In this document: positions 619 through 36,382 of the stretch, in pieces
Numbering within the stretch: position 1 is the stretch's first letter
How the letters are laid out: the number at the start of each line of letters is the position of its first letter
DNA from: Candidatus Zipacnadia bacterium
GTDB taxonomy: Bacteria > Armatimonadota > Zipacnadia > Zipacnadales > UBA5352
Length of the DNA: 47,194 bases
Reading direction: 5' to 3'
Assembly (NCBI GenBank): GCA_029820295.1
Contig: JALGVA010000021.1
Span: 1 to 47,194, forward strand
Translations under genes and position numbers: made by a program
Notes under the pieces: generated by a model
Seen by the model: the letters and a program-made list of their open reading frames with translations, nothing else
What the model was told of the DNA's origin: nothing
The model's database searches: none

Positions 619-892
619 CCGGTTGTGCACCCGACCGTCGATAACGCCGCCCAGCCGTTACCCCCGTAGCCGGCTCCGGCCAGGTGATCTGCGGCACAAG
701 TGGTCGTCCGCCTACCGCTGCTCCCTTCCGGGCCTGACGGGGTTCAGCGGGCTTCACCTTGCGCAGGACCCAGCCTTCATCACCACTTGCGAGGGTCAGA
801 CGCTACGCGACGAGACCTCGGGCGGGGATTAAGCCCCACTATGGCGGATTGTGGGTTCAGGGTACCGCCAGCACCCCGCCTAGCACAACCGG
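619..892 (-). ncRNA. ffs: Signal recognition particle RNA, large bacterial type
   Basis: This is the RNA scaffold of the signal recognition particle, which targets nascent membrane and secreted proteins. The invariant domain IV core is at about 717-740 on the minus strand: GTCAGGCCCGGAAGGGAGCAG, with its GGAA tetraloop. The GGGTCCTGCGCAA asymmetric loop is at about 758-771. The 5' half carries the Alu-domain wording GTGCTAGGCGGGG, ACCCTGAACC and CAATCCGCC at about 845-887, as in the Bacillus scRNA. The two ends pair perfectly: CCGGTTGTGC at 883-892 with GCACAACCGG at 619-628. Length is 274 nt, as expected for the large form and far longer than the E. coli 4.5S form. CAAGTGGT/ACCACTTG forms a lower stem of the core. 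Ends are set by the terminal helix and could be off by a few bases. Confidence 0.95.
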
Positions 893-1638: not shown

Positions 1639-1728
1639 TGGCGGAGAGGGTGGGATTCGAACCCACGAGACCCTTCCGGGTCTACCCGCTCTCCAGGCGA
1701 GCACCTTCGTCCACTCGGTCACCTCTCC
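1639..1728 (-). tRNA. tRNA-Ser (GGA)
   Basis: A 90-base class II tRNA. The acceptor arm GGAGAGG/CCTCTCC closes it and the T arm has GGTTCGAATCC. The anticodon loop CTGGAGA gives anticodon GGA, reading UCC/UCU. A long variable arm (GACCCGGAAGGGTC) marks it as serine. Discriminator G and an encoded CCA are present at 1639-1642. It is the last tRNA of the cluster in transcription order. Confidence 0.96.
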
Positions 1729-1752
1729 GCAGTCGGCGCTATTGGACGGGTT

Positions 1753-1769
1753 GGCGACGCAGTGTCGCC
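1753..1769. other. Spacer hairpin between tRNA-Ser genes
   Basis: Inverted repeat GGCGAC, 5-base loop, GTCGCC, in the spacer between tRNA-Ser(CGA) and tRNA-Ser(GGA). It may be a processing or termination structure. There is no T-run on either side. Confidence 0.35.
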
Positions 1770-1839
1770 CTGTGACGCGATACGCGCTCGTCGCGATGTC
1801 AAGGAGCTTTGATGGTGGGCCTTCGGCCTGGTCGTCCCT

Positions 1840-1884
1840 GCTGTTATCTGTCGTGATCTGTCGTTCGCTGTCGTTGTCCGCCGC
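1840..1884. repeat. Low-complexity TCTGTCGTT-type repeat
   Basis: Degenerate tandem units of about 10 bases (CTGTTATCTG, TCGTGATCTG, TCGTTCGCTG, TCGTTGTCCG) sit directly beside the 3' end of tRNA-Ser(CGA). The wording and orientation match the tract at 1587-1638, which has the same position relative to tRNA-Ser(GGA). Confidence 0.65.
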
Positions 1885-1885
1885 A

Positions 1886-1975
1886 TGGCGGTGAGGGTGG
1901 GATTCGAACCCACGAGACCCGCAAGGGTCCACACGCTTTCGAGGCGTGCGCATTCAACCGCTCTGCCACCTCACC
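1886..1975 (-). tRNA. tRNA-Ser (CGA)
   Basis: A 90-base class II tRNA. Acceptor GGTGAGG pairs with CCTCACC. The anticodon loop CTCGAAA gives CGA, reading UCG. The variable arm GGACCCTTGCGGGTCT is long. Discriminator G and an encoded CCA are present at 1886-1889. Its anticodon and T arms are very close to those of the neighbouring serine tRNA. Confidence 0.96.
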
Positions 1976-1988
1976 GCCCGGACTGGCG

Positions 1989-2008
1989 GCCGCCGCGAAG
2001 GCGGCGGC
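1989..2008. terminator. GC-rich spacer hairpin after tRNA-Arg(CCT)
   Basis: Perfect 8-bp inverted repeat GCCGCCGC, 4-base loop, GCGGCGGC. It lies downstream (minus strand) of tRNA-Arg(CCT). It resembles the stem of an intrinsic terminator, but no U-tract follows, so a processing role is equally possible. Confidence 0.4.
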
Positions 2009-2057
2009 AGGTCATCGGGCCAGGCCGCCGGAGGGCGGGGGCCCGCGACGTGCTGTC

Positions 2058-2134
2058 TGGCGCCCCCGGCCCGAGTCGAACGGGCGACCTTCAACTTAGG
2101 AGGTTGCTGCTCTATCCACCTGAGCTACGGGGGC
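2058..2134 (-). tRNA. tRNA-Arg (CCT)
   Basis: A 77-base tRNA with acceptor GCCCCCG/CGGGGGC, D-arm GCTC/GAGC and T arm GCCCGTTCGACTCGGGC. The anticodon loop CTCCTAA gives CCT, reading AGG. Discriminator G and an encoded CCA are present. In the anticodon stem (GCAAC / GTTGA) the outermost 27-43 pair is a G-A mismatch, unlike the usual G-C. Confidence 0.95.
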
Positions 2135-2177
2135 GCGTGGGCGGGCGGGGGCCGCCCATGTCGCCGGTTATCGCTGG

Positions 2178-2209
2178 AACGGCTCCGCGAAAACGCACGC
2201 GGAGCCGTT
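2178..2209. terminator. Perfect 12-bp hairpin between tRNA-Arg genes
   Basis: AACGGCTCCGCG at 2178-2189 and CGCGGAGCCGTT at 2198-2209 form a perfect 12-bp stem with an 8-base loop. It lies just downstream of tRNA-Arg(GCG) on the minus strand, 10 bases past its CCA. The loop, not the 3' flank, carries the T-run on that strand, so it is not a canonical intrinsic terminator. Confidence 0.55.
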
Positions 2210-2219
2210 GAGAAGACTC

Positions 2220-2295
2220 TGGCACGCCGGCCGCGATTTGAACGCGGGACCTCCGCCTCCGCAGGGCGGCGCTCTATCCCCTGAGCTACCGGCGC
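2220..2295 (-). tRNA. tRNA-Arg (GCG)
   Basis: A 76-base tRNA with acceptor GCGCCGG/CCGGCGT (first pair G-U), D-arm GCTC/GAGC, anticodon stem CCGCC/GGCGG and T arm CCGCGTTCAAATCGCGG. The anticodon loop CTGCGGA gives GCG for the CGC/CGU codons. Most bacteria instead encode ACG, which TadA deaminates to inosine. Discriminator G and an encoded CCA are present. Confidence 0.93.
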
Positions 2296-2306
2296 GCATT
2301 TCACTG

Positions 2307-2329
2307 GCGGCCATCTCCAGTGTGGCCGC
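2307..2329. other. Spacer hairpin between tRNA-Arg(CCG) and tRNA-Arg(GCG)
   Basis: GCGGCCA at 2307-2313 pairs with TGGCCGC at 2323-2329, with a 9-base loop. An overlapping alternative pairing (CACTGG with CCAGTG) is also possible, so the segment could switch between two folds. Confidence 0.35.
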
Positions 2330-2379
2330 ATGTGCACGGTATGTCAAGTCGCCGGCGACGCCGGCGCTGCGGATACCCA

Positions 2380-2455
2380 TGGTACGCCCGTCGCGATTCG
2401 AACGCGAGACCCCTGGCTCCGGAGGCCAGTGCTCTATCCACTGAGCTACGGGCGC
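2380..2455 (-). tRNA. tRNA-Arg (CCG)
   Basis: A 76-base tRNA with acceptor GCGCCCG/CGGGCGT, D-arm GCTC/GAGC, anticodon stem CTGGC/GCCAG and T arm TCGCGTTCGAATCGCGA. The anticodon loop CTCCGGA gives CCG, reading CGG. Discriminator A and an encoded CCA are present. It is the second tRNA in transcription order. Confidence 0.95.
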
Positions 2456-2465
2456 TTGATGCAGC

Positions 2466-2566
2466 AACGAAGGCAACGACCATGACGGCGGCAACGGCGT
2501 ACTGACCCCGCGCACCGACAGTACCGTGCCGTCTTCTTCGTTTTCGTTGCCGCCGTGGCCTTCGTT
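2466..2566. repeat. Long interrupted inverted repeat between tRNA-Arg(CCG) and tRNA-Ser(GCT)
   Basis: The left arm has AACGAAGGC (2466-2474) and ACGGCGGCAACG (2485-2496). The right arm has CGTTGCCGCCGT (2545-2556) and GCCTTCGTT (2558-2566). Together 21 pairs match, with a 10-base bulge on the left, a 1-base bulge on the right and a 48-base loop. The AACG wording is shared with the other spacer tracts. Confidence 0.6.
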
Positions 2567-2584
2567 TCCTTCGTTTCAGTCGTC

Positions 2585-2677
2585 TGGCGGAGAGGGCGGG
2601 ATTCGAACCCGCGAAGGAGGTTTACCCCCCTTAATCGCTTAGCAGGCGACTGCCTTCAGCCACTCGGCCACCTCTCC
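2585..2677 (-). tRNA. tRNA-Ser (GCT)
   Basis: A 93-base class II tRNA. Acceptor GGAGAGG pairs with CCTCTCC. The anticodon loop CTGCTAA gives GCT, reading AGC/AGU. The long variable arm (AAGGGGGGTAAACCTCCTT) is the longest of the three serine tRNAs here. Discriminator G and an encoded CCA are present. It is the first gene of the cluster and lies directly downstream of a good sigma-70-type promoter. Confidence 0.96.
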
Positions 2678-3070: not shown

Positions 3071-3240
3071 TTAGCTGCACCGCGCCGACAGCGCCTGCTC
3101 CCGCTCATCCACCATCTGCCGTAACACCTGGCCGTAGGCCTCCTGCGCCACCGCAAAAGCCGTGTCCTCCGCCTCGTCAAAGCTCTCTACGTCCGACCCG
3201 TCATCCCCCCCACCTCCATCGCGATCCTACGCCTGGCCAT
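3071..3240 (-). pseudogene. Small gene broken by a one-base deletion in a G-run
   Basis: An ATG at 3240 has a strong AGGAGG ribosome site (3249-3254) eight bases upstream and begins MARRRIAMEVGG. At a run of seven G (minus strand, 3205-3211) the frame changes and stops soon after. Adding one G would restore a 56-residue protein containing DVESFDEAEDTAFAVAQEAY and GQVLRQMVDEREQAL, ending at the TAA at 3071-3073. The restored protein is acidic, probably helical, and not one I recognise. The break could be a sequencing error, a real pseudogene, or phase variation at the homopolymer. Confidence 0.5.
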
Positions 3241-3357
3241 GGCTGCATCCTCCTGCTGCGATGATCGGCCCTCCTGCCGGCATGCTACCACAACATCCCG
3301 TCTCATCCACCGCCCCAGGCACACGGGTTTCGGTGCTGCCATGGCCCCGCTGAGGCC

Positions 3358-3399
3358 TTGACAGCCACAGCATTATCGTGTATCATCGATATGCGATGA
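3358..3399 (+). promoter_or_regulatory. Promoter and operator of the ArsR-type regulator
   Basis: A consensus -35 TTGACA (3358-3363), a 17-base spacer and a -10 TATCAT (3381-3386) predict transcription starting near 3393. A perfect inverted repeat TCATCG-N5-CGATGA (3383-3399) overlaps the -10 element and the ATG at 3396. Such a repeat under the promoter is the expected operator for autorepression by an ArsR/SmtB protein. The predicted leader is about three bases, so the mRNA is essentially leaderless. Confidence 0.8.
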
Positions 3400-3776
3400 A
3401 CCCTGAGAGGTCGGAGATAATCAAGGCGCTCGGACCAACTGACGAGGGCGGCAGCGGCGAGTTCCCGGGGGAACATGGGGACTTTGTCGTCGTCCTTGCC
3501 CGACTGGCCAAGGCGCTGGGGCATCCGGCGCGAGTGGAGATCCTGCGCTACCTGCTGGGCAGAGGCGAGTGTGTGTGCGGCGACATCGTGCGACGGCTTC
3601 CGCTGGTGCAGTCCACGGTGTCCGCGCACCTCAGAAGGCTGCGGGAAGCGGGCTTGGTTTCGGCCCGTCGTGAGAAATGCTGGATGGTCTATCGCGTCAA
3701 TCCCGGTGTGATTGACCATATGCGCGGTCTGCTTGGTCTGCTGGTTGGGGGGCAAATGGAAGAGGCGGCTGACTGA
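3396..3776 (+). CDS. ArsR/SmtB-family metalloid- or metal-responsive repressor
   Basis: A 126-residue winged-helix regulator. The core has LARLAKALGHPARVEILRYL (about 34-53), the metal-site-like ECVCGDI (C59 and C61 in the position of the ELCVCDL arsenic site of ArsR), the recognition helix QSTVSAHLRRLREAGLV (72-88) and a wing with REKCWMVYRV, which adds C95. ArsR-family proteins repress their own operon and release DNA when As(III), Sb(III) or another thiophilic metal binds. I chose the ATG at 3396 because the promoter places the transcript start almost on it; a GTG at 3378 lies upstream of the predicted start. A radical SAM gene follows 117 bases downstream. Family is secure; the inducer is inferred. 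Confidence 0.9.
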   Translation: MNPERSEIIKALGPTDEGGSGEFPGEHGDFVVVLARLAKALGHPARVEILRYLLGRGECVCGDIVRRLPLVQSTVSAHLRRLREAGLVSARREKCWMVYRVNPGVIDHMRGLLGLLVGGQMEEAAD

Positions 3777-3893
3777 GCCAGCTCCTCGGAGCGTACGCGT
3801 CGTCGCTGTGCGGAGGACGCAGGAACATAGTATGTGGGCTGTGTGTTGGTGCTCCCCGGCCTTGATGTGGTGCAACGGACGGAGGAGTGGACC

Positions 3894-5318
3894 ATGGTCG
3901 ATCTGAAGAGCAGAATCATTGATGGCGTAGCCAGGCTCACCGCCGACGAGCAGCGCTTTGTCTCTCATCTGCGCAACATCGCACGGCTGGGGAAGTACGT
4001 CGCGCCCACGCGAGGCCATCGCCGACAGCTCGACCGGCTGCAGTGGGCGATTGATCACGACCACCCCGCGATCCAACTGGTACGTCGGATCATCGACAAC
4101 TGCAACGAGAACTGCGTGCGCAGCGTGGCGCGGCTGTTCGTGGACCACGCATGGGAAGGATACCGTCGGCGGACGAAGCTGGAGCAGCAGTACGGGGTGA
4201 GTCTTCCGGGGTTCATCGTGATCTCGCCGCTGGCGCGCTGCAATCTGCGCTGCGTCGGGTGCTACGCCGGCGCTTACGGCGACCGCGAGCCTTACCTGAG
4301 CTACCACGACATGGAGCGGTTGCTGGACGAGGTGCGTGATTGGGGCTGCCGCTTCGTAGTCATCTCCGGCGGCGAGCCCACCATGTTCTGGCGCTCCATC
4401 CCCGGCGACGGCCGCGGGTTGCGCGACCTGTGCAGTCAGTACCACGACACCACCTTCCTCATGTACACCAACGGCACGCTCATCGACGACGAGATGGCCG
4501 CCGAGATGGCCGAACTCGGAAATGTGAGCCCGGGCATCAGCGTCGAGGGCTTCCGCGAGCAGACCGACGCGCGCCGCGGAGACGGGGTGTTCGACCAGGT
4601 CATGGACGCGATGGCGGCCCTGCGCAGGCACCGCGCGCTCTTCGGCGCTTCCGTCACTTACACCAGCCGGAACGCCGATATCGTCGCCTCGGATGAATTC
4701 ATCGACATGCTCATCGACCAGGGCTGCATCTACGCCTGGTACTTCATGTACGTGCCGGTGGGCCGCGACCCCGACCTGTCGCTGATGGTCACACCGGAGC
4801 AGCGCAGGCGCATGTGCGAGACCACCTGGCGCTGGCTTACTACGCGCCCGATCTTCGTGGCGGACTTCTGGAACTCCGGCGCACTCACTCACGGCTGCAT
4901 CGCCGCCGGCACCTCCGCCGGCTACCTGCACGTCACTCACCGCGGCGACATCTGCCCGTGCGTGTTCATGCTGTACTCGAGTCTGAACATGCATGAGACC
5001 GACTCGGAGACGCCGCTGCTCGACGCGGTACGAAGCGAGTTCTTCGCCCGAATCCGCCAGGGGCAGGAGCAGAAGCAGAACAACCCGCTGGCGCCGTGTC
5101 AGATCGTCGATCACCCCGAAGTGCTCAAGGAGGCCGTCGAGGCCACCGGCGCCCGTTCGACGCAGGAGGGTCAGACCATCCTCAACGGCCTGCACCCGCA
5201 GGTGTGCGAGCGCGCGGAGCGTTGGCGCGAGATCGCCGACGATCTGTGGACCACGTCCGGGATGTGGAAGGGCCTGCGCGACGCATACAGTGACAACGGG
5301 TGGCTGCCTCCGGGGTAG
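3894..5318 (+). CDS. Radical SAM protein with cysteine-rich C-terminal half
   Basis: A 474-residue radical SAM enzyme. The [4Fe-4S]/SAM motif is CNLRCVGCYAG (C116, C120, C123), followed by VISGGEP, the SAM-binding GGEP, and MYTNGTLI. The roughly 100 residues before the motif are helical and not a domain I recognise. The C-terminal part has scattered cysteines (HGCIAAG, GDICPCVFM, LAPCQIV, HPQVCERA) that could hold an auxiliary cluster of SPASM/twitch type. The ATG at 3894 has GGAGGAG six bases upstream; earlier GTGs lack this. It lies between an ArsR-type regulator and a B12-type radical SAM gene, suggesting a regulated modification pathway. The substrate is unknown. After the TAG stop the same frame stays open for 54 codons. 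Confidence 0.88.
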   Translation: MVDLKSRIIDGVARLTADEQRFVSHLRNIARLGKYVAPTRGHRRQLDRLQWAIDHDHPAIQLVRRIIDNCNENCVRSVARLFVDHAWEGYRRRTKLEQQYGVSLPGFIVISPLARCNLRCVGCYAGAYGDREPYLSYHDMERLLDEVRDWGCRFVVISGGEPTMFWRSIPGDGRGLRDLCSQYHDTTFLMYTNGTLIDDEMAAEMAELGNVSPGISVEGFREQTDARRGDGVFDQVMDAMAALRRHRALFGASVTYTSRNADIVASDEFIDMLIDQGCIYAWYFMYVPVGRDPDLSLMVTPEQRRRMCETTWRWLTTRPIFVADFWNSGALTHGCIAAGTSAGYLHVTHRGDICPCVFMLYSSLNMHETDSETPLLDAVRSEFFARIRQGQEQKQNNPLAPCQIVDHPEVLKEAVEATGARSTQEGQTILNGLHPQVCERAERWREIADDLWTTSGMWKGLRDAYSDNGWLPPG

Positions 5319-5483
5319 CGCCGGCAACTGCTCAGCTTGTGGCTGCGGGAGCTGAGCGGGGGGCAGCGAGATCAGAGTCAGGGGGGCATCTTCGCCCGGC
5401 ATCGCCGCGATTCCTACTCGCAGGTGACGTGCCGGACGGGGTGGGACCACGCCAACAACGCCGCGATGCGCGCCTCACGATGA
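5319..5483 (+). other. In-frame open extension and hairpin after the radical SAM stop codon
   Basis: The frame of the preceding gene continues past its TAG for 54 codons to a TGA at 5481-5483, with mostly G or C in third positions and content such as LLSLWLRELSGGQR and TGWDHANNAAMRAS. A perfect inverted repeat GCTCAGC (5330-5336), 14-base loop, GCTGAGC (5351-5357) starts 12 bases after the TAG. It could be a remnant of a longer gene, a readthrough extension, or a terminator stem in non-coding DNA. Confidence 0.4.
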
Positions 5484-5725
5484 GTGCGACGACTCTCACC
5501 AGCATCGGGCATCGGGGCGCGCGGTTCCAGCCTGCGGCGGCGGTGGGCGAGGACCCCGCGTGCCCCGCGCGGCGGGTCATTGATCACCAATACTCTCCCT
5601 TGACAATCTCGCATGGGGAGGTACACTGGTAGGCAGGAGACGAATCCGAAGAGCACCAGTTACTGGCACGACAGGCACACACCCGATGGCGGGCCAGGAA
5701 GAGACCAACTGTGGAGGATGTGCCC
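5484..5725 (+). promoter_or_regulatory. Promoter and leader of the second radical SAM gene
   Basis: A -35 TTGACA (5600-5605), 16-base spacer and -10 TACACT (5622-5627) predict a start near 5634 and a leader of about 90 bases before the ATG at 5726. The remainder of the interval (5484-5599) shows no gene. The independent promoter means this gene need not be read through from the ArsR promoter. Confidence 0.65.
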
Positions 5726-7033
5726 ATGGACATATGCCTGATCGCCGCCGAGGGAGCCAGATACCGCAACGAGGAGGAACAGCTCGCTCAGCCGCTGTTC
5801 CCGCCGCTGGGACTGATGACCGTCGCCGCGCTCACGCCGCCGGAGCACAACGTCACGATCATCGACGAGAGCGTCGAGGCCACTGATCTGACCATCGAGC
5901 CCGACCTGGTGGGCATCACCGCGATGACCGCCGCCGCCCCGCGTGCCTACCAGCTTGCCGACGCCTTCCGGGCGCGCGGCATTCCGGTGGTGATGGGCGG
6001 CATGCACGCCTCCGCGCTGCCCGAAGAGGCCCTCGAGCATGTGGACGCAGTGGTCATTGGTGAAGCTGAGGAACAGTGGCCCCGGCTGCTCGAGGATTTC
6101 GCTGCCGGGAAGATGCAACGCATCTATCGAAACGAGAGCTTTCCCCCGGCCTCGTCCATCCCGCCCGCCCGCCGTGACCTGATCGACGCTCCGCGCTACG
6201 TTGCGCGTTACGTGATGCAGGCCACCCGCGGCTGCCCCTTCGCCTGCTCGTTCTGCACGGTCTCGACCTTCTTCGGCAGGACGCTGCGTACGCGCCCCGT
6301 TGACGACGTCATCGCCGAGGCCAGCCAGCTCGAGGGCGAGCCGGTGACGCTCGTTGACGATAACATCATGGGCCATCCCGCCTACGCCCGGGAGCTGTTC
6401 GCGCGCTGGGCCGAGGTGGGCAAGTCGTTCTGGAGCCAGGCCTCTACCACCATGCTCAACAGACCCGAGCTGATCACTCAGGCCGCCAAGGCCGGGTGCA
6501 AGGCGTTGTTCGTGGGCTTCGAGAGCATCTCGCCGACGCAGCTCGCCAAGGTAGGCAAGGGCTTCAATCTGGTCGAGAAGTACGAGGAGCTGGTCAAGCG
6601 GCTGCACGATGCGGGCATCGCGGTCGTGGGCAGCTTCATGTTCGGCCTCGACGGCGACGACGAGAGCACCTTCGAGCGCACCGCAGAATTCGCCGAGCGC
6701 GCCCAGATTGACATCGGCCAGTTCTCGATCCTGACGCCGTTGCCGGGCACGCCTCTGATGCGCGACCTGGAGGACGCGGGGCGCATCATCGACCGCGACT
6801 GGAGCCACTACAATGGCTCCCACGTGACCTTCAAGCCGGTCGGCATGACGGTCGAACGTCTCGAAGCCGGCTTCCACTGGATCTACGAACGCTGCTACTC
6901 GTGGCGGAGCATCATACGCCGCGTGGGCAGGCGCGTCTCCCCGCTGGTGTGGACGGTCAACGCCATCTACAACCGCCGCGTAGGCCGCTGGCTGGCGAAC
7001 CTGCGCGCCGAGAACGCCGAGCCTGCGGGCTGA
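5726..7033 (+). CDS. B12-binding-domain radical SAM protein
   Basis: A 435-residue protein of the cobalamin-domain radical SAM group (BchE/HpnP-like layout). Residues about 1-150 form a Rossmann-like B12-binding domain (LFPPLGLMTVAAL, VGITAMTAAAPRAYQLADAF, VVMGGMHASALPEEAL, VVIGEAEEQWPRLL). I see no DxHxxG histidine ligand, which is common in this class. The radical SAM core begins with TRGCPFACSFCTVSTFFG (CxxxCxxC), then LVDDNIMG and GFESISPTQL. The C-terminal part (PVGMTVERLEAGFHWIYERC and onward) is a helical tail of DUF4070 type. The ATG at 5726 has GGAGG eight bases upstream. Relatives methylate or rearrange lipids and natural products; the substrate here is unknown. Confidence 0.87.
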   Translation: MDICLIAAEGARYRNEEEQLAQPLFPPLGLMTVAALTPPEHNVTIIDESVEATDLTIEPDLVGITAMTAAAPRAYQLADAFRARGIPVVMGGMHASALPEEALEHVDAVVIGEAEEQWPRLLEDFAAGKMQRIYRNESFPPASSIPPARRDLIDAPRYVARYVMQATRGCPFACSFCTVSTFFGRTLRTRPVDDVIAEASQLEGEPVTLVDDNIMGHPAYARELFARWAEVGKSFWSQASTTMLNRPELITQAAKAGCKALFVGFESISPTQLAKVGKGFNLVEKYEELVKRLHDAGIAVVGSFMFGLDGDDESTFERTAEFAERAQIDIGQFSILTPLPGTPLMRDLEDAGRIIDRDWSHYNGSHVTFKPVGMTVERLEAGFHWIYERCYSWRSIIRRVGRRVSPLVWTVNAIYNRRVGRWLANLRAENAEPAG

Positions 7034-7121
7034 ACACCGGCGCCGGCCCCGAACGTTGCCGGTTGCCGTCACCGGGCACCGGGAGCGGGCTGCAGGTTGA
7101 GCCGCACGGGAGGTGCCGCTC

Positions 7122-7835
7122 ATGCGCATCTGCCATCCTCTGCTGATCGCGGCCGCGCTCGCTCTGTGCGCTGCGCCGCTCGTGGCCGATACCTCCGCGC
7201 CGGCGTACTCGCTGCTGATCGACGTGCCCGGCTACAACCACGCGGGGACGGCGGTCGCGCCTATGTGGCCGCTGACCGACTGGCTGGGCGCGTCGGTCGA
7301 GGACGGGGGCGAGTGGGCCATCATCCGCCGTGGCCGGCAGGTGGTCTACCTGCAGCTCCCGCGCTCGATGTGGTCGAGCGAACTGCCCATCGTGCCGCTG
7401 CGCACGGTTGCCGAGAGCGTCGGGGCGGAGGTGCACTATCACGGCGCCGACAGCGAGATCGGCGCGCAGCTCGGGCACATCCCGGTGGTGGAGCTGACGC
7501 TCGAGGGGAAGCAGGGCCTGGTGATCGTGCACGGCGCGCCGCCGGCGGAGGTCAGAGCGATCATCGACGACGTCGCCGACGACCGCATCGGCATCGACTA
7601 CCTGCTGCGCGTGAGCGCACTCGCGGGTGACTGGGCCAAGACCCACGAGCCGCAGTTCGACGAGGCGTGCGGCTTCACTGCGCGCTACGTGACGGGCGTG
7701 CTGCAGCGCACTGAGGAGGGCTGGGCGTACGTGCTGCGCTCCAGCAAGGTCTCCTGCACGCAGGCCGAACTTGCCGAGGCGGGCATTCCGCTCGACGTCG
7801 CGCAGCAACTGGGCATGGAGATCGAGAACCTGTAG
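7122..7835 (+). CDS. Exported protein with copper-amine-oxidase-N-like stalk domains
   Basis: A 237-residue protein with a signal peptide (LLIAAALALCAAPLVA, about 6-21). It has two short beta-rich segments, PMWPLTDWLGASVEDGGEWAI and VPLRTVAESVGAEVHY, that follow the copper amine oxidase N-terminal domain pattern (xxxPLRxxAExxGxxV). Despite the name, that domain is a stalk or wall-associated module with no oxidase activity. The C-terminal half (TLEGKQGLVIVHG, GIDYLLRVSALAGDW) is unassigned. The ATG at 7122 is preceded by GGGAGG at eight bases. It follows the B12 radical SAM gene by 88 bases and faces the sulfatase gene end to end. Confidence 0.72.
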   Translation: MRICHPLLIAAALALCAAPLVADTSAPAYSLLIDVPGYNHAGTAVAPMWPLTDWLGASVEDGGEWAIIRRGRQVVYLQLPRSMWSSELPIVPLRTVAESVGAEVHYHGADSEIGAQLGHIPVVELTLEGKQGLVIVHGAPPAEVRAIIDDVADDRIGIDYLLRVSALAGDWAKTHEPQFDEACGFTARYVTGVLQRTEEGWAYVLRSSKVSCTQAELAEAGIPLDVAQQLGMEIENL

Positions 7836-7889
7836 TCTCGCGCCACGGCGCGGTTGGCTGCCGTTCGGCCACTGTCGTTGTGCCCTCGC

Positions 7890-9347
7890 TCACTCCGGCC
7901 ACGTATTGCAGCCCTCCGGCGCGTCCCAGCAGTCCTCCGACGGGCCGGTCAGCACCTGGTTACGGGTCCAGGCGCGGATGACCTCGGCTCCCGCGCGGCT
8001 GCGCCGCATGGACCGCAGCGCCCGCTCCGGGTCCCAGCCCCAGAGCACGCGGTCGTGCAGGTGGGCCCGCAGGTCGCGGCACTGCGGATCGCCCGCCCGG
8101 TCCTCGAACTCGTTCGGGTCCTCGTCAAGGTTGAAGAGCATCGGCTCGTGCTCGTCGTAGTGGATGAGCTTCCACGGCCCGCTGCGGATCATGCGCGCCG
8201 GGTGCTCGTACTGCGCCCCGAAGCCGATCAGCTCCGACAGCGCCTCGTCGCGCCACGGAGCGCAGCTCCCGCCCCGCAGCAGCGGCAGCAGACTCTGCGC
8301 CGAGGTCAGCGGCAGCTCCGGCCCGCCGCCGATGTCGGCCAGCGTGGGCGCGAGGTCGAGCAGGCTCACCACCTCGGAGCGCGTCTCCCCCGTCGGGATG
8401 TCCGGCCCGGCCATGATCATGGGCACGCCCACTGAGTGGTCGTAGAAGCTGCTCTTCCACCACAGCCCGTTGCGCCCGGCCGACTCGCCGTGGTCGGAGA
8501 CGTAGATGACCACTGTGTTCTCCGCCTGCCCCGACTCGGCCAGCCCGGCCAGCACCTCGCCGACCACCTCGTCGAAGTGCTCGACCATGCCGTAGTAGGC
8601 CGCGCGCGCGGAGCGGATCTGCTCCTCGGTGAGGTCGGTCACCCCACGCACCTCGCGCCAGTGGCGCATCGCCGGGTGCATGCGCTCGAAGTAGCCGTCG
8701 GGGATCTCAGGCATGGGCACGCGCTCGTAGTAGTAATCGAACAGCTCCCTGCGCGCGACGAACGGGCAGTGCGGCAGCACGAAGCCCGCGACCAGCAGCA
8801 ACGGCCCCTCGTCGCCGCGCGTGGCCAGGAAATCGCGCGCGACCGCGCCCACAGCCTCATCGTAGGCCTGGTAGGCGGTGCGGCCCGCGCCGGAGATGGC
8901 TACCGCCGGGTAGGTCTGTCCACTGGCGCCCGCCATGCGCTCGCCCAGGCCAGCGCCGCGCCCGCCACCCGGACCGTAGGCCGCGACGTCGCCGATGATC
9001 CGCCGGTGGAAGCCGTGGCGCTGGTCGGGGCCGATGAAGTGCATGCGCCCGCACAGCACGGTCTCGTAGCCCGCCGCGCCCAGCGAGTGCGCGAAGGTGG
9101 GGACGTCCGAGCCGAGGTAGCATGAGTTGGTCCACACGCCGATGTCCGAGCAGTGGCGACCGGTGAGCATGGTCATGCGCGAGGGTACGCACAGTGGCGC
9201 GCCGCAGTAGGCGCTCTCAAAGCGCACACCGCGCTCCGCGAGCGCGTCCAGGTGCGGGGTGCGCACCACCGGATCGCCCGCGCACCCCATCAGGCCGGGC
9301 GCGTGCTGGTCGGAGACGATGAGCAGGATGTTGGGCTGGTCGGCCAT
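7890..9347 (-). CDS. Sulfatase, cytoplasmic type (no signal peptide)
   Basis: A 485-residue type I sulfatase that hydrolyses sulfate esters. NILLIVSDQHAPG supplies the first metal-binding aspartate. The formylglycine motif CVPSRMTMLTGRH has the catalytic cysteine at C53, which needs conversion by FGE or an anaerobic maturase. YVSDHGESAGRNGLWWKSSFYDHSVGVP holds the second metal site. Overall it resembles choline-sulfatase-like and carbohydrate sulfatases. There is no signal peptide. The ATG at 9347 has AGGAG eight bases upstream; an upstream open stretch overlaps the preceding gene and is not protein-like. It lies 37 bases behind the large GH42-like gene in one operon, so it probably acts on sulfated sugars freed by the exported enzymes. 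Confidence 0.93.
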   Translation of the reverse strand: MADQPNILLIVSDQHAPGLMGCAGDPVVRTPHLDALAERGVRFESAYCGAPLCVPSRMTMLTGRHCSDIGVWTNSCYLGSDVPTFAHSLGAAGYETVLCGRMHFIGPDQRHGFHRRIIGDVAAYGPGGGRGAGLGERMAGASGQTYPAVAISGAGRTAYQAYDEAVGAVARDFLATRGDEGPLLLVAGFVLPHCPFVARRELFDYYYERVPMPEIPDGYFERMHPAMRHWREVRGVTDLTEEQIRSARAAYYGMVEHFDEVVGEVLAGLAESGQAENTVVIYVSDHGESAGRNGLWWKSSFYDHSVGVPMIMAGPDIPTGETRSEVVSLLDLAPTLADIGGGPELPLTSAQSLLPLLRGGSCAPWRDEALSELIGFGAQYEHPARMIRSGPWKLIHYDEHEPMLFNLDEDPNEFEDRAGDPQCRDLRAHLHDRVLWGWDPERALRSMRRSRAGAEVIRAWTRNQVLTGPSEDCWDAPEGCNTWPE

Positions 9348-9384
9348 CAGGTCGGCTCCTCTCGTCGGCGATGGGGCGCCGGGA

Positions 9385-12300
9385 TCACCGGACTTCGATC
9401 GTCTTCTCGGCGGTGATACCTGAGGCGACGTCCCGGGCGACCAGGCGCCAGGTTCCCGTGGGGTCGTTGAGCGCGAACGGGATGTCCGCCGCGCCCTGAC
9501 CACCCGGGCAGTCGATGTTCTGCGAGTACTGGCGGTGCGGCGCATCGGCGCCCGGCGCGTAGACGTCCAGCCGTGCCACGTGATAGCCCGCGTCGGCCGT
9601 CGCCGAGATGGCGACGGTCACCGGCTGGGCGGCTCCGCGCGTCGCCGTGTCCGGGCCGCCGAGGGCCACGCCCGTGACCTCGTAGGACAGCAGCGCGTAA
9701 AGCAGGGGCTCGCCGCGCGAGAGCGTGATGTCCCACTCGCGCGCCGCGCCCTCGCCGACCTGCCGGCCCGCGCGCACGTCGTAGACGATCGCCGGGTCGG
9801 CCAGCGTGATATGCGCGGGTTGGTCGGCCAGGCCCGGCAGCAGGATGTCCTGCTGGATGCCCAGGTAGCGCGTCGGCCCGTCGGTAAAGAGCACCTGGTG
9901 GGTGGCCAGCGGTCGGCCGCCGGTGCGCAGCTCGATCTGCGCGAAGGGCTCCACGCCGGCGCTGCGCGTGATGGCGTCGAGGATGGCGCTGCGCAGATGC
10001 GGGCCGGCCTCGCCGCGCGTGCGACGGTACTCCTCCATGGCGATGTTGAGCGTGACCGCGAGGCCCTCGCCCACCTGGTGGGTGATCAGAACGGGCATGC
10101 CCGCGACCTCGGCCATGGCCGCGCCGGTGGTCACCTGCAGGCTCGGGTCGAGCACGCGCACCTCGAACTCGCCCGGCGGCAGCGTGTGGTCGGCGCCGGG
10201 TCCGGCCATCTCCTGCTCGATAACCAACAGGCCGGTCTGACTCGACTGCGCGAAGGCCTCGCGGCCCGCGGGCGCGGTGACGCCCAGCAGGTCATCGAGC
10301 GCGCGGGCGTCGCGGAAGGCGCCGTCGCCGGTGAGCAGGCCGGCGCGTCCATCCACCACGAGCGTCCCGCCGGCTTCGACGTACGCGCGCAGTGCCGCGA
10401 CCTGCTCGTCGGAGATGCAGGTCGCGAACGGCAGCACCAGCGCGCGGAAGTCGTCGGGGCTGATGCCGGTTGCGAGCCGTTCGCCGGTGATGATGGTCGG
10501 CTGCAGCCCGAGGTCACACAGGCCCTTGAGGATGCCCTCGTGCTCGGCGAGGAAGGTGGTGTCGCCGGCGAAGGCCGCCTCGGGAGTGATCTCCCGGGCG
10601 ACTACCGCTGCGTGCATGTTGCGCTGCGCGTGGACCACGGCGACCGGCGAGTTGACGCGCTCGCCGTGCAGCAGCAGGCGGCCGGGGCCGTGGGTGGTCT
10701 CCGCGACCGCGCGGAAGAACCACTCGCCGAACTTGCTCTGCGACAGGTCGGGGTTGAACGGGACATAGTCGCATCCCCACGAGGTCCACCACCACACGGA
10801 GTTGTCGCCCTTGAACAGGCAGGCCCACGGGAAGGCGTTCCAGCCTGCCTCGTTGTCGGCGACCCGGTTGCCCCACTTGCCCGTCAGCGCCCCCGGCTGC
10901 TTGAAGGCGCGCACCATCTCGCCCTGCAGCCACTGGCTGATGTAGGTCTGGTTCAGCTCCAGCCCATCGGTCAGGTCGGCGAAGTCGTAGCCCGACCTCC
11001 AGCCCCAGGTGAGCAGCCCGTCCCAGCCGACCTTCGCGCCGGGGTCCTGCGCGCGGATGGCGTCGGCGAAGACGCGGTGCGTGTCGGCGAAGGAGGCGTC
11101 CAGGAAGGCCCTGGCGTCCAGCCACGGGGCGAGGCTCGCCGGCGCGTCCTCTTCGGTGGCGCAGGCGACGGCATCCTCGAGGCGCATCGGCTCGATGGTC
11201 TCGAACCCCGCATATTCGGTGTCCCACGCGGCATTGAGCGCGGCGATGGTGCCATAGCGCTCCTGCAGCCACGCCTGGAACTGCGCGATGGCGGCCGGGT
11301 GATGGCCGATCTCATCCTCGCCGCGGTAGAGGTAGTTCTCGTCGCCCAGCGTATACGCCGCCGGCTGGTAGGGAGCGCCCTGGCGAGCGTTCATGGTCAG
11401 GAACTCGCGCCAGCTCTCGAGGTACTCGGGATCGCTCAGCGACGGCTCGCGCACGCCGTCAGTGGCGCGCTCGCTGAAGATGCGCGTCACGTAGGGCACC
11501 AGGCGCATGCCCGACCACGCGGTGATGGCGTGTTCGCGGGCGGCGCGCGCGTCGTCGGCACGCAGCGTGTTGGCCGGATCGCACATGTCCGCGCCCCACT
11601 CGTAGCACAGGCGGTCGGTGCGTCGGATCACCGGGGAGCCGCCGGTGGTGGTCCACATCAGCGCGGTGAAGTCCTCGTAGGGATAGGGCACGGTCATGGT
11701 GAAGCGCAGCCGCTGGAAGTCCAGCTCTGCCTCGCCCTGCTGCAGCGACACCTCGAGCAGGTGGCAGACGGTCACCGGACGCGCGACCGACAGCGTCACC
11801 GACAGCTCGCCGCCGGCCGGCGGCACGGTCGTGGTGTCCTCGGCGAGCACGCGGTCGAAGACATCGCGCACCTGCCAGCGCACCTGAGCGCCATCGAGCC
11901 GACGAGGCGCGTCGATGGTCGCTGCGCAGCGCAGCTCGCCGCCCTCGGGCAGATCGACCCAGGGCGGAGCGAACTCGTGCGTGCGGCGCGACGGCTCGAT
12001 GGCTACGGTGGCGATGGCCGGCCCGCCGCTCGCGGGCAGTGCGGCCGAGGCGATGCCGATCGTGGCGCCGTCGGCATCGAGGGCGGTGGCGTCGATGACG
12101 TGGCTGCGGCCGGGCGGCAGCGGCGGAAGCTCGAGCGCGCCCGCGTCGAGTGGCAGCGGCAGCTCGCGCGCGTCGATGACGCGGCCCAGGTCGTCCTGCA
12201 CGCGCACACGCAGGCGCGCGCCCTCGGGCGCGGCGTCCACGGTCACCGGCAGCGCCCCGCCGGCGATCTCGTCCACGCGCAGGTCGATGAGGCAGGCGGG

Positions 12301-22230: not shown

Positions 22231-22246
22231 AGTCGGAGGGATGGCG

Positions 22247-23734
22247 ATGAACCGTCGCGAGTTCCTCGGGCTGAGCCTGGCGGCAGGAGGGGCGATGCTG
22301 ATGGCACGCTACATGACGGGCGGGACGGCTCACGCAGCGCCGGACGGCGCACCGAACGTGCTGTTCATCCCGGTCGATGACCTGCGGCCGCAACTCCGCT
22401 GCTTCGGCCACGAGCAGATGATCTCGCCGAACATCGACCGGCTCGCGGCGGAGGGCACGGCGTTCCTGCGCACACACTGCCAGCAGGCCGTATGCGCGCC
22501 CTCGCGGGCAAGCCTGCTGAGCGGCCTGCGGCCCGACTCCACACGCGTGTGGGACCTGCAAACTCCGCTGAGCACCACCCGGCCGGAGATCGTGACGCTT
22601 CCGCGACATATGCTCGCCAACGGCTACACCACGGTCTCGCTGGGCAAGGTCTACCACCACCGGGTGAAGGATGACCCCGAGGGCTGGAGCGAGCCGCCGT
22701 GGGGCGGGCAGTACAACACCCACGGCTCGCCCGAGCTGCGGGCCGAACGCGCCGAGGCCCAGCGGGCCGCACGCGCGGCCGGAGTGGCCTCCAACTGGCG
22801 CGGGCCATCGACCGAGGCGCTGGACGTGCCCGACGAGCACTTCGGCGACGGCGCACTGACCGCGCGGGCCATCGAGGATATGCGGCGGCTGGCGCAGGCG
22901 CCTGAACCGTTCTTCCTCGCGGTCGGCTACCACCGCCCGCATCTGCCCTTCGCCTGCCCGCAGCGCTACTGGGACATGTATCCGCCCGAGAGCATCAGCC
23001 TGGCCGACAATCCCTTCCGACCGCAGGACTGCCCGGACATCGCGCTGCACAACTGGGGCGAACTGCGGCGCTACTCGGACATCCCGGAGGAGGGCGATCT
23101 GCCCGAGGACAAGGCCCGCGAGCTGATCCGCGGCTACTACGCCTGCACCACCTTCATCGACACCCAGGTGGGCCGGCTGCTGGATGAGCTGGAGCGGCTG
23201 GGGCTGCGCGAGAACACGGTGGTATGCCTGTGGGGCGACCACGGCTGGCAGCTCGGCGAGCACGGGCTGTGGTGCAAGCACACGAACTTCGAGACCTCCA
23301 CGCACTCGCCACTGCTGATCAGTGCGCCCGGGCAGGCCGCCGCCGGGCGGCCGACGCGGGCACTATGCGAATTCGTGGACATCTACCCGACGCTGTGCGA
23401 GCTGTGCGGGCTGGAGCTGCCCGAGCACCTCGAGGGCGCCAGCCTGCGGCCGCTCATGGACCAGCCCGAGCGGCCCTGGAAGCGCGCGGCCTTCAGCCAG
23501 TACCCGCGCGGCGACGGCGTGATGGGCTACTCGATGCGGACGGACCGGTATCGGTATACGGAGTGGCGGGCCAGGCGTGGCGCGGGCGATGTCGTCGCGA
23601 CGGAGCTCTACGACCACGAGGCCGATCCGGGCGAGAACGTGAACCTGGCCGGACGGCCGGAGAGCGCGGCGCTGGTGACCGAGCTGGCGGGGATGCTGGC
23701 GGAGGGCCGGCAGGGCGCGCTGCCGCCGGCGTAG
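22247..23734 (+). CDS. Tat-exported sulfatase, iduronate-2-sulfatase-like
   Basis: A 495-residue type I sulfatase with a twin-arginine signal (NRREFLGLSLAAGGAML). NVLFIPVDDLRPQLRCFG gives the double-aspartate metal site, and the formylglycine motif is CAPSRASLLSG with catalytic C83. Other conserved pieces are GKVYHH, FLAVGYHRPHLPF and LWGDHGWQLGEHGLWCKHTNFE. These match the iduronate-2-sulfatase/S1_7-like group, which removes 2-O-sulfates from uronic acids. The ATG at 22247 is chosen over 22241 because GGAGGG then has a six-base spacing. It is the last gene of the DUF6259-lyase-sulfatase operon, 16 bases behind the lyase. Export supports action on intact or partly cut polysaccharide outside the cytoplasm. 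Confidence 0.94.
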   Translation: MNRREFLGLSLAAGGAMLMARYMTGGTAHAAPDGAPNVLFIPVDDLRPQLRCFGHEQMISPNIDRLAAEGTAFLRTHCQQAVCAPSRASLLSGLRPDSTRVWDLQTPLSTTRPEIVTLPRHMLANGYTTVSLGKVYHHRVKDDPEGWSEPPWGGQYNTHGSPELRAERAEAQRAARAAGVASNWRGPSTEALDVPDEHFGDGALTARAIEDMRRLAQAPEPFFLAVGYHRPHLPFACPQRYWDMYPPESISLADNPFRPQDCPDIALHNWGELRRYSDIPEEGDLPEDKARELIRGYYACTTFIDTQVGRLLDELERLGLRENTVVCLWGDHGWQLGEHGLWCKHTNFETSTHSPLLISAPGQAAAGRPTRALCEFVDIYPTLCELCGLELPEHLEGASLRPLMDQPERPWKRAAFSQYPRGDGVMGYSMRTDRYRYTEWRARRGAGDVVATELYDHEADPGENVNLAGRPESAALVTELAGMLAEGRQGALPPA

Positions 23735-33217: not shown

Positions 33218-36200
33218 CTAGGCCGGTTCCAGCGTCTCGACCACCACCGGCCCCATCAGGCCGTGGTCGTTGAGATAGTACTCGAAGCGCCACCTGGGGT
33301 TGCTCGGGCTGAACTCGCCCGGCCCGGTCCAGGCCTCCCACGGCGTGTGCAGCGGCCCGAGGATGTTGTGCCGCCCGCCGATCACCTCGATGGCGACCTG
33401 GTTCGTGCCCTCGCCCATCGCGTCGGTGATGTCCGCCACGAAGGGTGCCCAGGGCAGCACGAACTGCTCGCCGCCGACGTGGACCACCGCCGCGGTGCAC
33501 TCGATCTCCGGCAGCGCGATCCGGCAGCGCCGGCCCTCGGCGGGCTTCTCGATCTCGACGTGATAGATGACCGCGCCGCCGTAGGTGTCGAGGCCCTGGC
33601 CCACCCACGAGCCCTCCTCGAGGCGCTCAGGCGGCGCCACCAGCGTCATCCGCCCCGGCGCGGGCGGCTCATCGGTCAACGTCGCCACGCCGAAGTCGCC
33701 CACCAGGTACATCTCCTCCAGCTCCATGTCCGGCCGGTAGGCGAAGGTGAGCAGGATCTCGTTGTCGCCCCGCTGCAGGACACCGGTGATGTCGATGGTC
33801 TTGATGTCATCATCGACCCACCAGCCATCGACCTCGGACACCTCCGCCCCGTTGACCGTGACGGTGTAGTCCTCCGGACTCTCCAACGCCAGCTTGCAGG
33901 ACGCGGGCAGGTCGGTGACGTGGACCTGCCAGCGCATACTCCAGTAGTCGCGCGGCTCGGTATCCACCACGCCGGTGGCGTAGAGATACCACGGCTGGTG
34001 CTCGCTGCCGAAGCGTGGGCGCAGGCCGTACTCGGCGCGGATCAGCTCGTCGGCCTTAAGCACCGGCACGCTCTCCGACCACTCGCCGTCGGCCATGCGG
34101 AATTCGCAGTAATCCAGCGGCAGCGTGTTGGGCTCGGTCAGCTCGATCTCGAAGGGCCCGGCAATCTCATCGCGCGCGGCAATGGCCATCAACGGCCCGG
34201 GCTGCTCGACCCCCTCGATCGCCACGCCGGTGGAGAACAGCGCCGAGCCGGTCGGGCCCAGGCGGACCTCGAAGGCCAGGCGCCCGTCGTCCTCCCACGC
34301 CGGCACCTCGAGCCTGCGGCCGGTGCGCGGGTCCCACTGCACGACCGGCGCCTGGGCGTCCAGATGGGCGATGACCGTGTGCGCGCTCTTGCGGTCGTGG
34401 CTCTGCACGAACAGCACCTGCGCGTCGCCGACGCGGCGCAGCATGCTCCAGACGAAGTCTGCCTCCTCGCCCTCGCGCGTGATCGACACGCGGCGCGGCA
34501 GGATGCCATCGACGGCCTCGACCAGCTCCACCGGCGCCTCGGAGCAGACGCGCGCGCGTGTGGCGAGGTCCGCGACGCGCGCGTCGAGCCGGCCATCGAC
34601 GCGGTCGGGCGGCTCGCCGGCGAAGAGCAGCGCGCCGCCACCGGCGACGAAGCGCTCGAGCAGTTCGACGGTCTCGGCGCGCAGCGTCAGCGTCGGCGGC
34701 ACGATAACCAGGCGGTAGGTCATGTGCCCGACGCGCAGCGTGTCGTCGATGACGCCCGCGTGCTTCGCCAGCAGTGACTCATCGCCGAAGTCCCAGTCGT
34801 GGTGTGCGAAGGAGAGCGCGTAGATGATGCCCTCAAGTTGCGCCTCAAGGCGCTCGATGGTCTGCTTCCCGCCCTCGCTGTCGGCGAGTCCCCAGCCGCT
34901 CTCGACGGGGTGGATCACCAGCACGTCGCGCAGCGGCCGCCCGGCGGTGAGCAGCACGCTCAGGCGCGCGAAGTAGTCCTCTACCTCGGAGTAGTAGGGC
35001 CACCAGGGGCTGTGGTCGCGGATCGACGCCGGGTAGTCGCGCTTGGCCCCGCCCGCGAGCGAGTAGTGCGCCAGGTGCGGGCAGCGGAAGTTCACACCGC
35101 ACGCCCACTGCCAGTCGCCGGAGAACTTGTGGCCTTCCAGCGGCCAGTCCCAGCCGGTGCAGCCGTAGGTCTCGCTGAGCACGCGCTCCATGCCCAGTTG
35201 CGCCGCGACCGAGGTCGCCTGCTTGGCGGTGGTCAGCTCGTTGACCTGGTCACGGAGCATGTCAATGCCGGGCCACTGCATCCACTCACAGTGCGGCATG
35301 GCCGCGCCCACGCACTGGCGCTGCGAGGCCAGCGTCTCTTCGGCCAGCAGGTGGCCGGTGGCGGCGATGTTGTGCTCGGCGCACCACCGGCCGATCTGCT
35401 GCGAGTAGGCCTCCACGAACAGCTCGGTGATGGTGCGGAAGTAGTCGTGGCGCACCGCGCTGAAGTCGCCGTCGGCGGGCGGCAGCACCACCTCCGGCAG
35501 GCGCTCGCGCAGGTCGTAGCCGCGCCGGCGCTCGAACTCGTCGGCCAGGCGGCAGGTCCAGGGGATGCGCATGGCCGTGTGGATCTGCGCCCCGTAGCTC
35601 GGCTCATCGGTGAAGATCGCTGGGATGATCGTGCCCATATCGTCGGCGTAGCGCGCGGCGTACTGCTCATGCGTGACGCGAATGAACTCGGCCACCGCCT
35701 CGGGGTCGAGGGTGTCGAGATAGCCGCCATCGTTGGTCCAGCCGGAAACCTCCTGCATGCCCGGGCAGAAGAACAGCGCACGGTGCTGCACGTGCGCGTC
35801 CTCGGCGGTCATGATCTCGCCCGGGCCGCCGATCTTCTCGTAGGAGACCAGCCGTTCGTCCTCATCGAGTTGCACGTCGAAGACCGCATGCACTTTGATG
35901 GTCGCCGGGTCGGGGCCGTCGAAGTGTGCGCTCAGGTACTTCAGGCGGTACTCGGGATGCTCGCGCGTGACCAGCCCGCCCGCGGGCCCCGACGGCCAGC
36001 GGTCCTCGTCGTACAGGTAGGCGTGCATACCCAGATCGCGGCACTTCTCCACGCAGGCGGACACGCACTCGAACCAGCGCTCGGACAGGTAGGGGGTCTT
36101 CAGCCCGTAGCGCGAGTGCATGAAGGCGCCGCCCATGCCGGCGTCGTGCATCGACTGGATCTGGGCCTGCAGCCGCTCGGGCTCCAGCTCGGCGTTCCAT

Positions 36201-36274
36201 GACCAGAACGGGGCGCTGCGGTAGATCGACGGCGGGCTCTGCCAGCTCTCGTTCAGCGAGTTCAGGTCGCTCAT
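33218..36274 (-). CDS. GH106-like large glycoside hydrolase (1,018 residues)
   Basis: The N-terminal third is a TIM barrel of the GH106 (alpha-L-rhamnosidase) type: APFWSWNAELEPERLQAQI, MGGAFMHSRYGLKTPYLS, LYDEDRWPSG and FTDEPSYGAQ, where E224 is a catalytic candidate. A GATase-like segment (LVIVPPTLTLRAETVELLERF, GGALLFAGEPP) follows, and the C-terminal part has a galactose-binding-like beta-sandwich (VNGAEVSEVDGWWVDDDIKTI, IYHVEIEKPAEGRRCRI). No signal peptide is visible from the ATG at 36274 (AAGGAG seven bases upstream), so it may act in the cytoplasm on imported oligosaccharides. It is divergent from a pilin-like gene. Family-level call is fair; rhamnosidase activity is inferred. Confidence 0.75.
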   Translation of the reverse strand: MSDLNSLNESWQSPPSIYRSAPFWSWNAELEPERLQAQIQSMHDAGMGGAFMHSRYGLKTPYLSERWFECVSACVEKCRDLGMHAYLYDEDRWPSGPAGGLVTREHPEYRLKYLSAHFDGPDPATIKVHAVFDVQLDEDERLVSYEKIGGPGEIMTAEDAHVQHRALFFCPGMQEVSGWTNDGGYLDTLDPEAVAEFIRVTHEQYAARYADDMGTIIPAIFTDEPSYGAQIHTAMRIPWTCRLADEFERRRGYDLRERLPEVVLPPADGDFSAVRHDYFRTITELFVEAYSQQIGRWCAEHNIAATGHLLAEETLASQRQCVGAAMPHCEWMQWPGIDMLRDQVNELTTAKQATSVAAQLGMERVLSETYGCTGWDWPLEGHKFSGDWQWACGVNFRCPHLAHYSLAGGAKRDYPASIRDHSPWWPYYSEVEDYFARLSVLLTAGRPLRDVLVIHPVESGWGLADSEGGKQTIERLEAQLEGIIYALSFAHHDWDFGDESLLAKHAGVIDDTLRVGHMTYRLVIVPPTLTLRAETVELLERFVAGGGALLFAGEPPDRVDGRLDARVADLATRARVCSEAPVELVEAVDGILPRRVSITREGEEADFVWSMLRRVGDAQVLFVQSHDRKSAHTVIAHLDAQAPVVQWDPRTGRRLEVPAWEDDGRLAFEVRLGPTGSALFSTGVAIEGVEQPGPLMAIAARDEIAGPFEIELTEPNTLPLDYCEFRMADGEWSESVPVLKADELIRAEYGLRPRFGSEHQPWYLYATGVVDTEPRDYWSMRWQVHVTDLPASCKLALESPEDYTVTVNGAEVSEVDGWWVDDDIKTIDITGVLQRGDNEILLTFAYRPDMELEEMYLVGDFGVATLTDEPPAPGRMTLVAPPERLEEGSWVGQGLDTYGGAVIYHVEIEKPAEGRRCRIALPEIECTAAVVHVGGEQFVLPWAPFVADITDAMGEGTNQVAIEVIGGRHNILGPLHTPWEAWTGPGEFSPSNPRWRFEYYLNDHGLMGPVVVETLEPA

Positions 36275-36382
36275 GCGGGCTCTCCTTCGCGGCACGCGAC
36301 TGACATCCGGGCCTGCGCCGCCTCCTTCGCCGTTCCCGCGCGATTCCCTGCGCGCCGTTGCGGCGGCGCGGCGCCCCGACCG

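Follow-up and report, generated by a model that had tools for sequence, protein, structure and literature searches.

What an arsenic-sensor-type repressor gene does in front of two radical SAM enzyme genes is the question raised by a locus of a Candidatus Zipacnadia bacterium (Armatimonadota). We analysed a stretch of 47,194 nucleotides around it, called the window below, which lies on contig C252 of a MAG (G000) of 5.6 Mb, 331 contigs and 98.6% completeness. The three genes that the initial annotation had placed here, arsR, rSAM1 and rSAM2, are all present, as judged by matches to HTH_5, PF04055 and PF02310. A search of the literature on this pairing of an ArsR with radical SAM enzymes found nothing. 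The features of the locus are as follows.

3358-3386, plus strand: sigma-70-type promoter of arsR, TTGACA-17-TATCAT, 11 of 12 consensus matches
3382-3399, no strand: operator-like palindrome, TCATCG-ATATG-CGATGA at 3383-3399, a perfect 6+6 inverted repeat
3396-3776, plus strand: arsR, 126 aa, ArsR/SmtB-type repressor with C59-V-C61 (NF033788)
3894-5318, plus strand: rSAM1, 474 aa, twitch-type radical SAM protein (PF04055, 78.5 bits)
5600-5627, plus strand: promoter-like site before rSAM2, TTGACA-16-TACACT, 10 of 12 consensus matches, without operator
5726-7033, plus strand: rSAM2, 435 aa, radical SAM protein with a B12-binding domain (PF02310, 55.1 bits; PF04055, 72.5 bits)

The three genes and their genomic setting

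The arsR product matched HTH_5 with 54.8 bits and passed the metalloregulator model NF033788 (76.5 bits, cut-off 55), which makes it a member of the ArsR/SmtB family. The repressor had initially been described as carrying a Cys-X-Cys motif plus C95; the motif, C59-V-C61 in alpha-3, is kept in all three arsR orthologues (the window, L021 with 47% and L029 with 51% identity to it), but C95, although present in the window, is not conserved among them. The gene begins with an ATG at 3396, 10 bases past the -10, with an in-frame GTG upstream at 3378, and is probably leaderless. The winged helix, the C-x-C before the recognition helix and, as predicted from the sequence, autorepression via a palindrome over the promoter are all common to this protein and the ArsR/SmtB metalloregulators (NF033788, CVC-type ArsR). 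The window arsR differs from them in having no conserved third Cys, in a start codon that lies within the operator of a probably leaderless gene, and in an operon that holds radical SAM genes rather than arsC, arsB/acr3 or arsM.

Linkage of the genes was examined in an order-level sample, in which 15 genomes have rSAM1 at 60% identity or more. In 13 of the 15, rSAM2 comes next after rSAM1 on the same strand, about 50 to 410 bp away. G035 has a different gene after rSAM1 and its rSAM2 on another contig, at the contig edge, and no rSAM2 match was obtained in G009, though it has rSAM1 at this identity. The pair also occurs with an rSAM1 of lower identity (about 41-44%) in L031, L038, L039, L040, L043 and L046, and another Armatimonadota class, Hebobacteria, is among these distant pairs. 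On the other hand, G003, G007 and G002 have rSAM2 but no rSAM1, and the rSAM2 of G021 is next to an rSAM1 remnant whose N- and C-terminal pieces are recognisable but whose catalytic core is gone, suggesting that the two enzymes are not strictly interdependent. The coupling is strong but not obligatory. The arsR gene was found beside rSAM1 in only three Zipacnadia lineages and is absent from the other loci with upstream sequence. The three-gene order, which the initial annotation had proposed to follow in relatives, thus holds widely for the two enzymes and narrowly for the sensor. B12-type radical SAM genes next to rSAM1 in five Planctomycete loci are only about 30% identical to rSAM2 and were counted as similar partners rather than as its orthologues.

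Co-transcription of the three genes is likely in relatives, where the gaps are about 56-66 bp. In the window itself it is not certain, because a gap of 408 bp separates rSAM1 from rSAM2 and rSAM2 has a separate promoter-like site. The possibility that a 386-bp stretch between these genes is a repeat or multi-copy element was ruled out, as it is single copy in the genome. A short contig in a MAG of the same genus (L068/G001:C13, L077) carries arsR and the start of rSAM1 with 100% identity to the window, and the same MAG also has its own 47%/73% copy; the identical contig points either to mixed strains in the bin or to a recent transfer.

Elsewhere in the window, six tRNA genes stand in a row (Ser gga, cga, gct; Arg cct, gcg, ccg; 1639-2677, minus strand), near a bacterial large SRP RNA (181 bits; 623-888, minus strand), and between the two is a gene at 1175-1585 for a protein of the 23S-rRNA-intervening-sequence type. 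ARAGORN also called a tRNA-Arg at 35465-35554 (minus strand), inside a glycoside hydrolase 106 gene (33218-36295) on the same strand; this call is probably a false positive.

Predicted promoter and operator of arsR

A promoter scan of 3100-7900 gave 2 sites where 0.5 were expected. At arsR, the palindrome overlaps both the -10 and the start codon. The -35 (TTGACA), the -10 and the palindrome are kept upstream of arsR in L021 and L029 (TATCGTCGAATTACGATGAA; TATCGTCTTTTTACGATGAA), and the flanks have diverged between the window and these two loci.

Four whole genomes (G000, G017, G001 and G005) were searched for the operator pattern ATCRTCN6CGATGA, with a base-composition expectation of about 0.34 matches per genome. 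One match was found in G000, one in G017 and two in G001, every one at an arsR promoter; one of the two in G001 is on the contig identical to the window's. The pattern is absent from the whole genome of G005, for which no linked arsR is known, and a reversed control pattern gave 0 matches in the same four genomes. Since two relatives retain both elements, and since in the four genomes searched the operator pattern occurs only at these arsR promoters, the arsR product is probably a dedicated autorepressor. We infer that it represses itself together with rSAM1, and its regulon may be limited to its own operon.

Cluster sites and folds of the two enzymes

The CX3CX2C radical SAM cluster site of rSAM1 (C116/C120/C123) is present in 39 of 39 relatives. 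Extra cysteines had been noted in this protein, and four of them bear out the remark: C335, C356 and C402 are invariant (39/39) and C278 is found in 33/39, but the remaining ones are not conserved. In all 39 relatives, C335-X15-G351-X4-C356 fits CX9-15GX4C, the start of the SPASM/twitch motif (PMC6231123), and together with the invariant C402 it marks rSAM1 as twitch-type. The seven-cysteine SPASM motif for two auxiliary clusters was not found, as only three conserved cysteines lie past C278. Because the rest of this motif is missing, rSAM1 would be expected to have a single auxiliary cluster in which one iron site is open, like the cluster to which GTP binds in MoaA (PMC6231123, PMC9012708).

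In the AlphaFold model of rSAM1 (pLDDT 90.8), about 100 residues ahead of the core form a domain made up entirely of helices. In a Foldseek search SuiB, SkfB and anSME ranked first with TM about 0.5, and no NCBIfam model among the best 25 listed was over its cut-off. The CX3CX2C core and the CX9-15GX4C site are thus common to rSAM1 and the twitch/SPASM enzymes MoaA, BtrN, SkfB, SuiB and anSME, whereas its set of three invariant auxiliary cysteines and its helical N-terminal domain of about 100 residues set it apart from them, as does its failure to score over the cut-off of any listed curated family. Viperin-like anti-phage defence was also considered and rejected, as there were weak core matches only.

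The second enzyme had been read as a cobalamin-domain radical SAM protein, and the profile matches confirm it: a B12-binding domain (PF02310, cut-off 32.1) is joined to a radical SAM core with CX3CX2C at C170/C174/C177, placing rSAM2 in the B12-binding radical SAM family. Its predicted model (pLDDT 84.7) is closest to the solved folds of AprD4 (TM 0.75), MgmA and TsrM, with which, as with HpnJ and TIGR04013, it has the B12-binding Rossmann domain and the radical SAM core in common. It scored 99.9 bits against a cut-off of 251 for TIGR04013 and 88.5 against 577.6 for HpnJ; among the best 25 NCBIfam models listed none was over its cut-off, and rSAM2 is far below every listed equivalog cut-off. 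Consistent with the initial view of a sensor linked to two enzymes of unassigned substrate, no curated family names either of them. AprD4 is a diol dehydratase, and the modelled likeness to it does not imply methyl transfer by rSAM2; because the group carries out dehydration as well as methylation, a reaction cannot be assigned to rSAM2. Membrane glycosyltransferase-like genes behind rSAM2 (L025, L065, L046) are mutually unrelated and were dropped.

The wider rSAM1 family and candidate functions

Although the individual folds are already known, the large family of which rSAM1 is a member is named only 'radical SAM protein'. Profile searches detected it in 141 of 299 genomes sampled from the phylum of G063 (Bacillota), that is, in nearly half of them, and in 15 of 248 genomes of a Planctomycetota class. 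A regulator gene adjoins rSAM1 at 25 of 48 loci, nearly all of them in other phyla, as a raw count; ArsR and TetR genes account for no more than a few per cent of genes. The regulators are ArsR (11), a winged-helix type 'c3' (8) and TetR (6), and several of the regulator-rSAM1 pairs have overlapping stop and start codons. On a Methanosphaera plasmid, TetR directly precedes an rSAM1 annotated only as 'radical SAM protein'. Where the regulator is known, the rSAM1 tree requires no fewer than six changes of regulator type. The mis-framed rows L089, L095, L100 and L120 form long branches in this tree, and no conclusion rests on these four. The ArsRs linked to rSAM1 in Bacillota are without Cys-X-Cys. 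Because relatives use such an ArsR, a TetR or another winged helix, metal sensing is no constant of the pathway; what is constant in the family is the presence of a local repressor. Among the Bacillota loci L116, L120, L124 and L127 we also noticed a branch in which rSAM1 is followed by a gene for a class-III aminotransferase-like protein (about 459 aa, identified by eye), and another branch in which a gene for a small membrane protein (about 151 aa) precedes it.

Some neighbours of rSAM1 point to lipids. A phasin-like gene and a UbiB-family kinase adjoin it in Planctomycetota and some Bacillota, a START protein of lipid-transport type is nearby in three loci, and the best scores of the rSAM1-linked TetR, though below cut-off, were against the fatty-acid regulators FadR and FasR. 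In the window no lipid-related gene adjoins rSAM1, and these hints are weak, coming from distant relatives. One broad interpretation, to which we give only limited credence, is that rSAM1 represents an undescribed, widespread inducible family of anaerobic bacteria and archaea, repeatedly recruited under ArsR with or without CxC, TetR or other winged-helix regulators, which remodels a membrane lipid or isoprenoid under stress, with the thiol sensor and the B12-binding partner enzyme as later additions in Zipacnadia.

The gene order, the cluster motifs, the conservation of promoter and operator, the genome-wide uniqueness of the operator and the recurrent pairings are all read from sequence. Our best explanation of the locus is that the two radical SAM enzymes form an inducible pathway, controlled by a dedicated autorepressor and responsive to thiols or soft metals, that tailors a small non-peptide substrate, perhaps lipid-like. 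We put its probability at roughly 0.4. In this pathway, when no inducer is present, an ArsR dimer would occupy the palindrome, which spans the -10 and the start codon of arsR, and would block arsR-rSAM1. A thiophilic ligand (a soft metal ion, an arsenite-like species or thiol-reactive stress) would bind the C59/C61 thiolates and free ArsR from the operator. rSAM1 would then make the 5'-deoxyadenosyl radical at its C116/C120/C123 cluster and act on a small substrate of non-ribosomal origin, which the C335/C356/C402 auxiliary cluster may bind through its open iron, much as MoaA binds GTP. A second tailoring step would be carried out by rSAM2, which is probably co-transcribed in close relatives. 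A lipid or other hydrophobic small molecule seems the most likely substrate, if only by a weak inference. The regulatory half of this mechanism is much better supported than the chemical half.

Synthesis or modification of an organo-metalloid by a metalloid-induced pathway, as initially proposed with ArsS and ArsL in mind, would suit the C-V-C of arsR, which corresponds to the arsenite-binding CVC motif of plasmid ArsR and is kept in three orthologues, and it would suit an operator that serves only this operon. However, what ArsS and ArsL have in common with our enzymes is the radical SAM fold: rSAM1 scored 27.5 bits for ArsS (TIGR04167, cut-off 300), rSAM2 16.8 bits for ArsL (NF040542, cut-off 450), and no ArsM partner is over cut-off in the genome, where the best match has 60.3 bits (cut-off 263). 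The earlier remark that arsenate reductase, pump and ArsM are missing was borne out among the window gene products scanned, and none of arsC, arsB/acr3 and arsM adjoins the operon, unlike in an ars detoxification operon. The sole Acr3 match of the genome (G000:C85:1942-2334) covers model positions 1-95 and 288-327, with the middle missing and an internal stop, and seems to be a deleted remnant; Acr3 is absent from G001 and G017, both of which have a CxC arsR. None of the four tested members of an arsenic gene set (ArsS, ArsL, ArsM, Acr3) is thus intact and over cut-off in the genome, and the set was rejected. Since the rSAM1-linked ArsRs of Bacillota lack CxC, and a TetR or another winged helix takes their place in other relatives, a metalloid-related product is not supported, and we consider it improbable. 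In a survey of these classes ArsR was annotated in 53 of 77 MAGs, ArsB in 21 and ArsC in 16 (PMC10290634), counts that fit ArsR proteins serving other operons. Rather less doubtful is a role in cofactor or other small-molecule chemistry, such as a haem d1/AhbC/NirJ-like reaction or the tailoring of quinones or cobamides, in which the CxC ArsR would sense redox state or thiols: NirJ2, AhbD, AhbC and NirJ are among the best NCBIfam relatives of the rSAM1 core, and BzaD and BchE among those of rSAM2. All these scores are far under cut-off (e.g., 68.7 against 500), and the scanned neighbours hold no haem, quinone or cobamide genes, so that this reading is possible but still unlikely.

The peptide-modifying SuiB, SkfB and anSME are the closest solved folds of rSAM1, which raises the possibility of RiPP maturation, with rSAM1 modifying a genetically encoded, thiol-rich peptide and rSAM2 methylating it. 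The fold match, however, spans the radical SAM and twitch parts common to many enzymes, the N-terminal domain is modelled as a bundle of helices only and does not resemble the winged RiPP-recognition domain, and no listed NCBIfam RiPP maturase model was over cut-off. Nor was a conserved small ORF that could be a precursor found around 17 loci; most matches of an initial search were antisense or frame shadows inside genes. The thiol-rich peptide of the initial annotation is accordingly not supported, and RiPP maturation appears quite improbable. We give hardly any weight to the view that the anSME fold reflects a true anaerobic sulfatase maturase, even though the window encodes two CxPxR sulfatases that would need formylglycine maturation (7890-9545, minus strand, and 22241-23734, plus strand; CVPSR and CAPSR): rSAM1 scored 35.5 bits against the anSME cut-off of 349, far enough below for rejection, it has only three auxiliary cysteines, as against seven in the anSME SPASM motif, and only one sulfatase (L022) appeared among the relatives' neighbours scanned. 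Synthesis of membrane-spanning lipids by enzymes of the Tes/Mss type is just as hard to credit. Mss homologues have been reported in Armatimonadota MAGs (PMC11868695) and relatives have lipid-linked neighbours, but rSAM1 matches the solved Tes in the radical SAM core only (37 bits over about 110 residues), and the structure match to Tes, with 221 aligned columns and TM 0.38, ranked 44; with similarity confined to the core rather than full-length, this candidate was rejected.

The recurrent pairing of rSAM1 with a local repressor offers a route to the function of its family, namely to find the derepressing signal and then the metabolite that changes. The Zipacnadia version provides a compact, testable ArsR-operator unit, with a regulon of apparently one operon and a recurrent B12-binding partner. 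rSAM1 relatives with 30-33% identity also occur on plasmids of Escherichia albertii and Klebsiella pneumoniae (L130:2254-3633 and L131:7854-9155). The E. albertii gene had no megablast match in E. coli genomes, and both plasmid genes are located near replication genes and insertion sequences.
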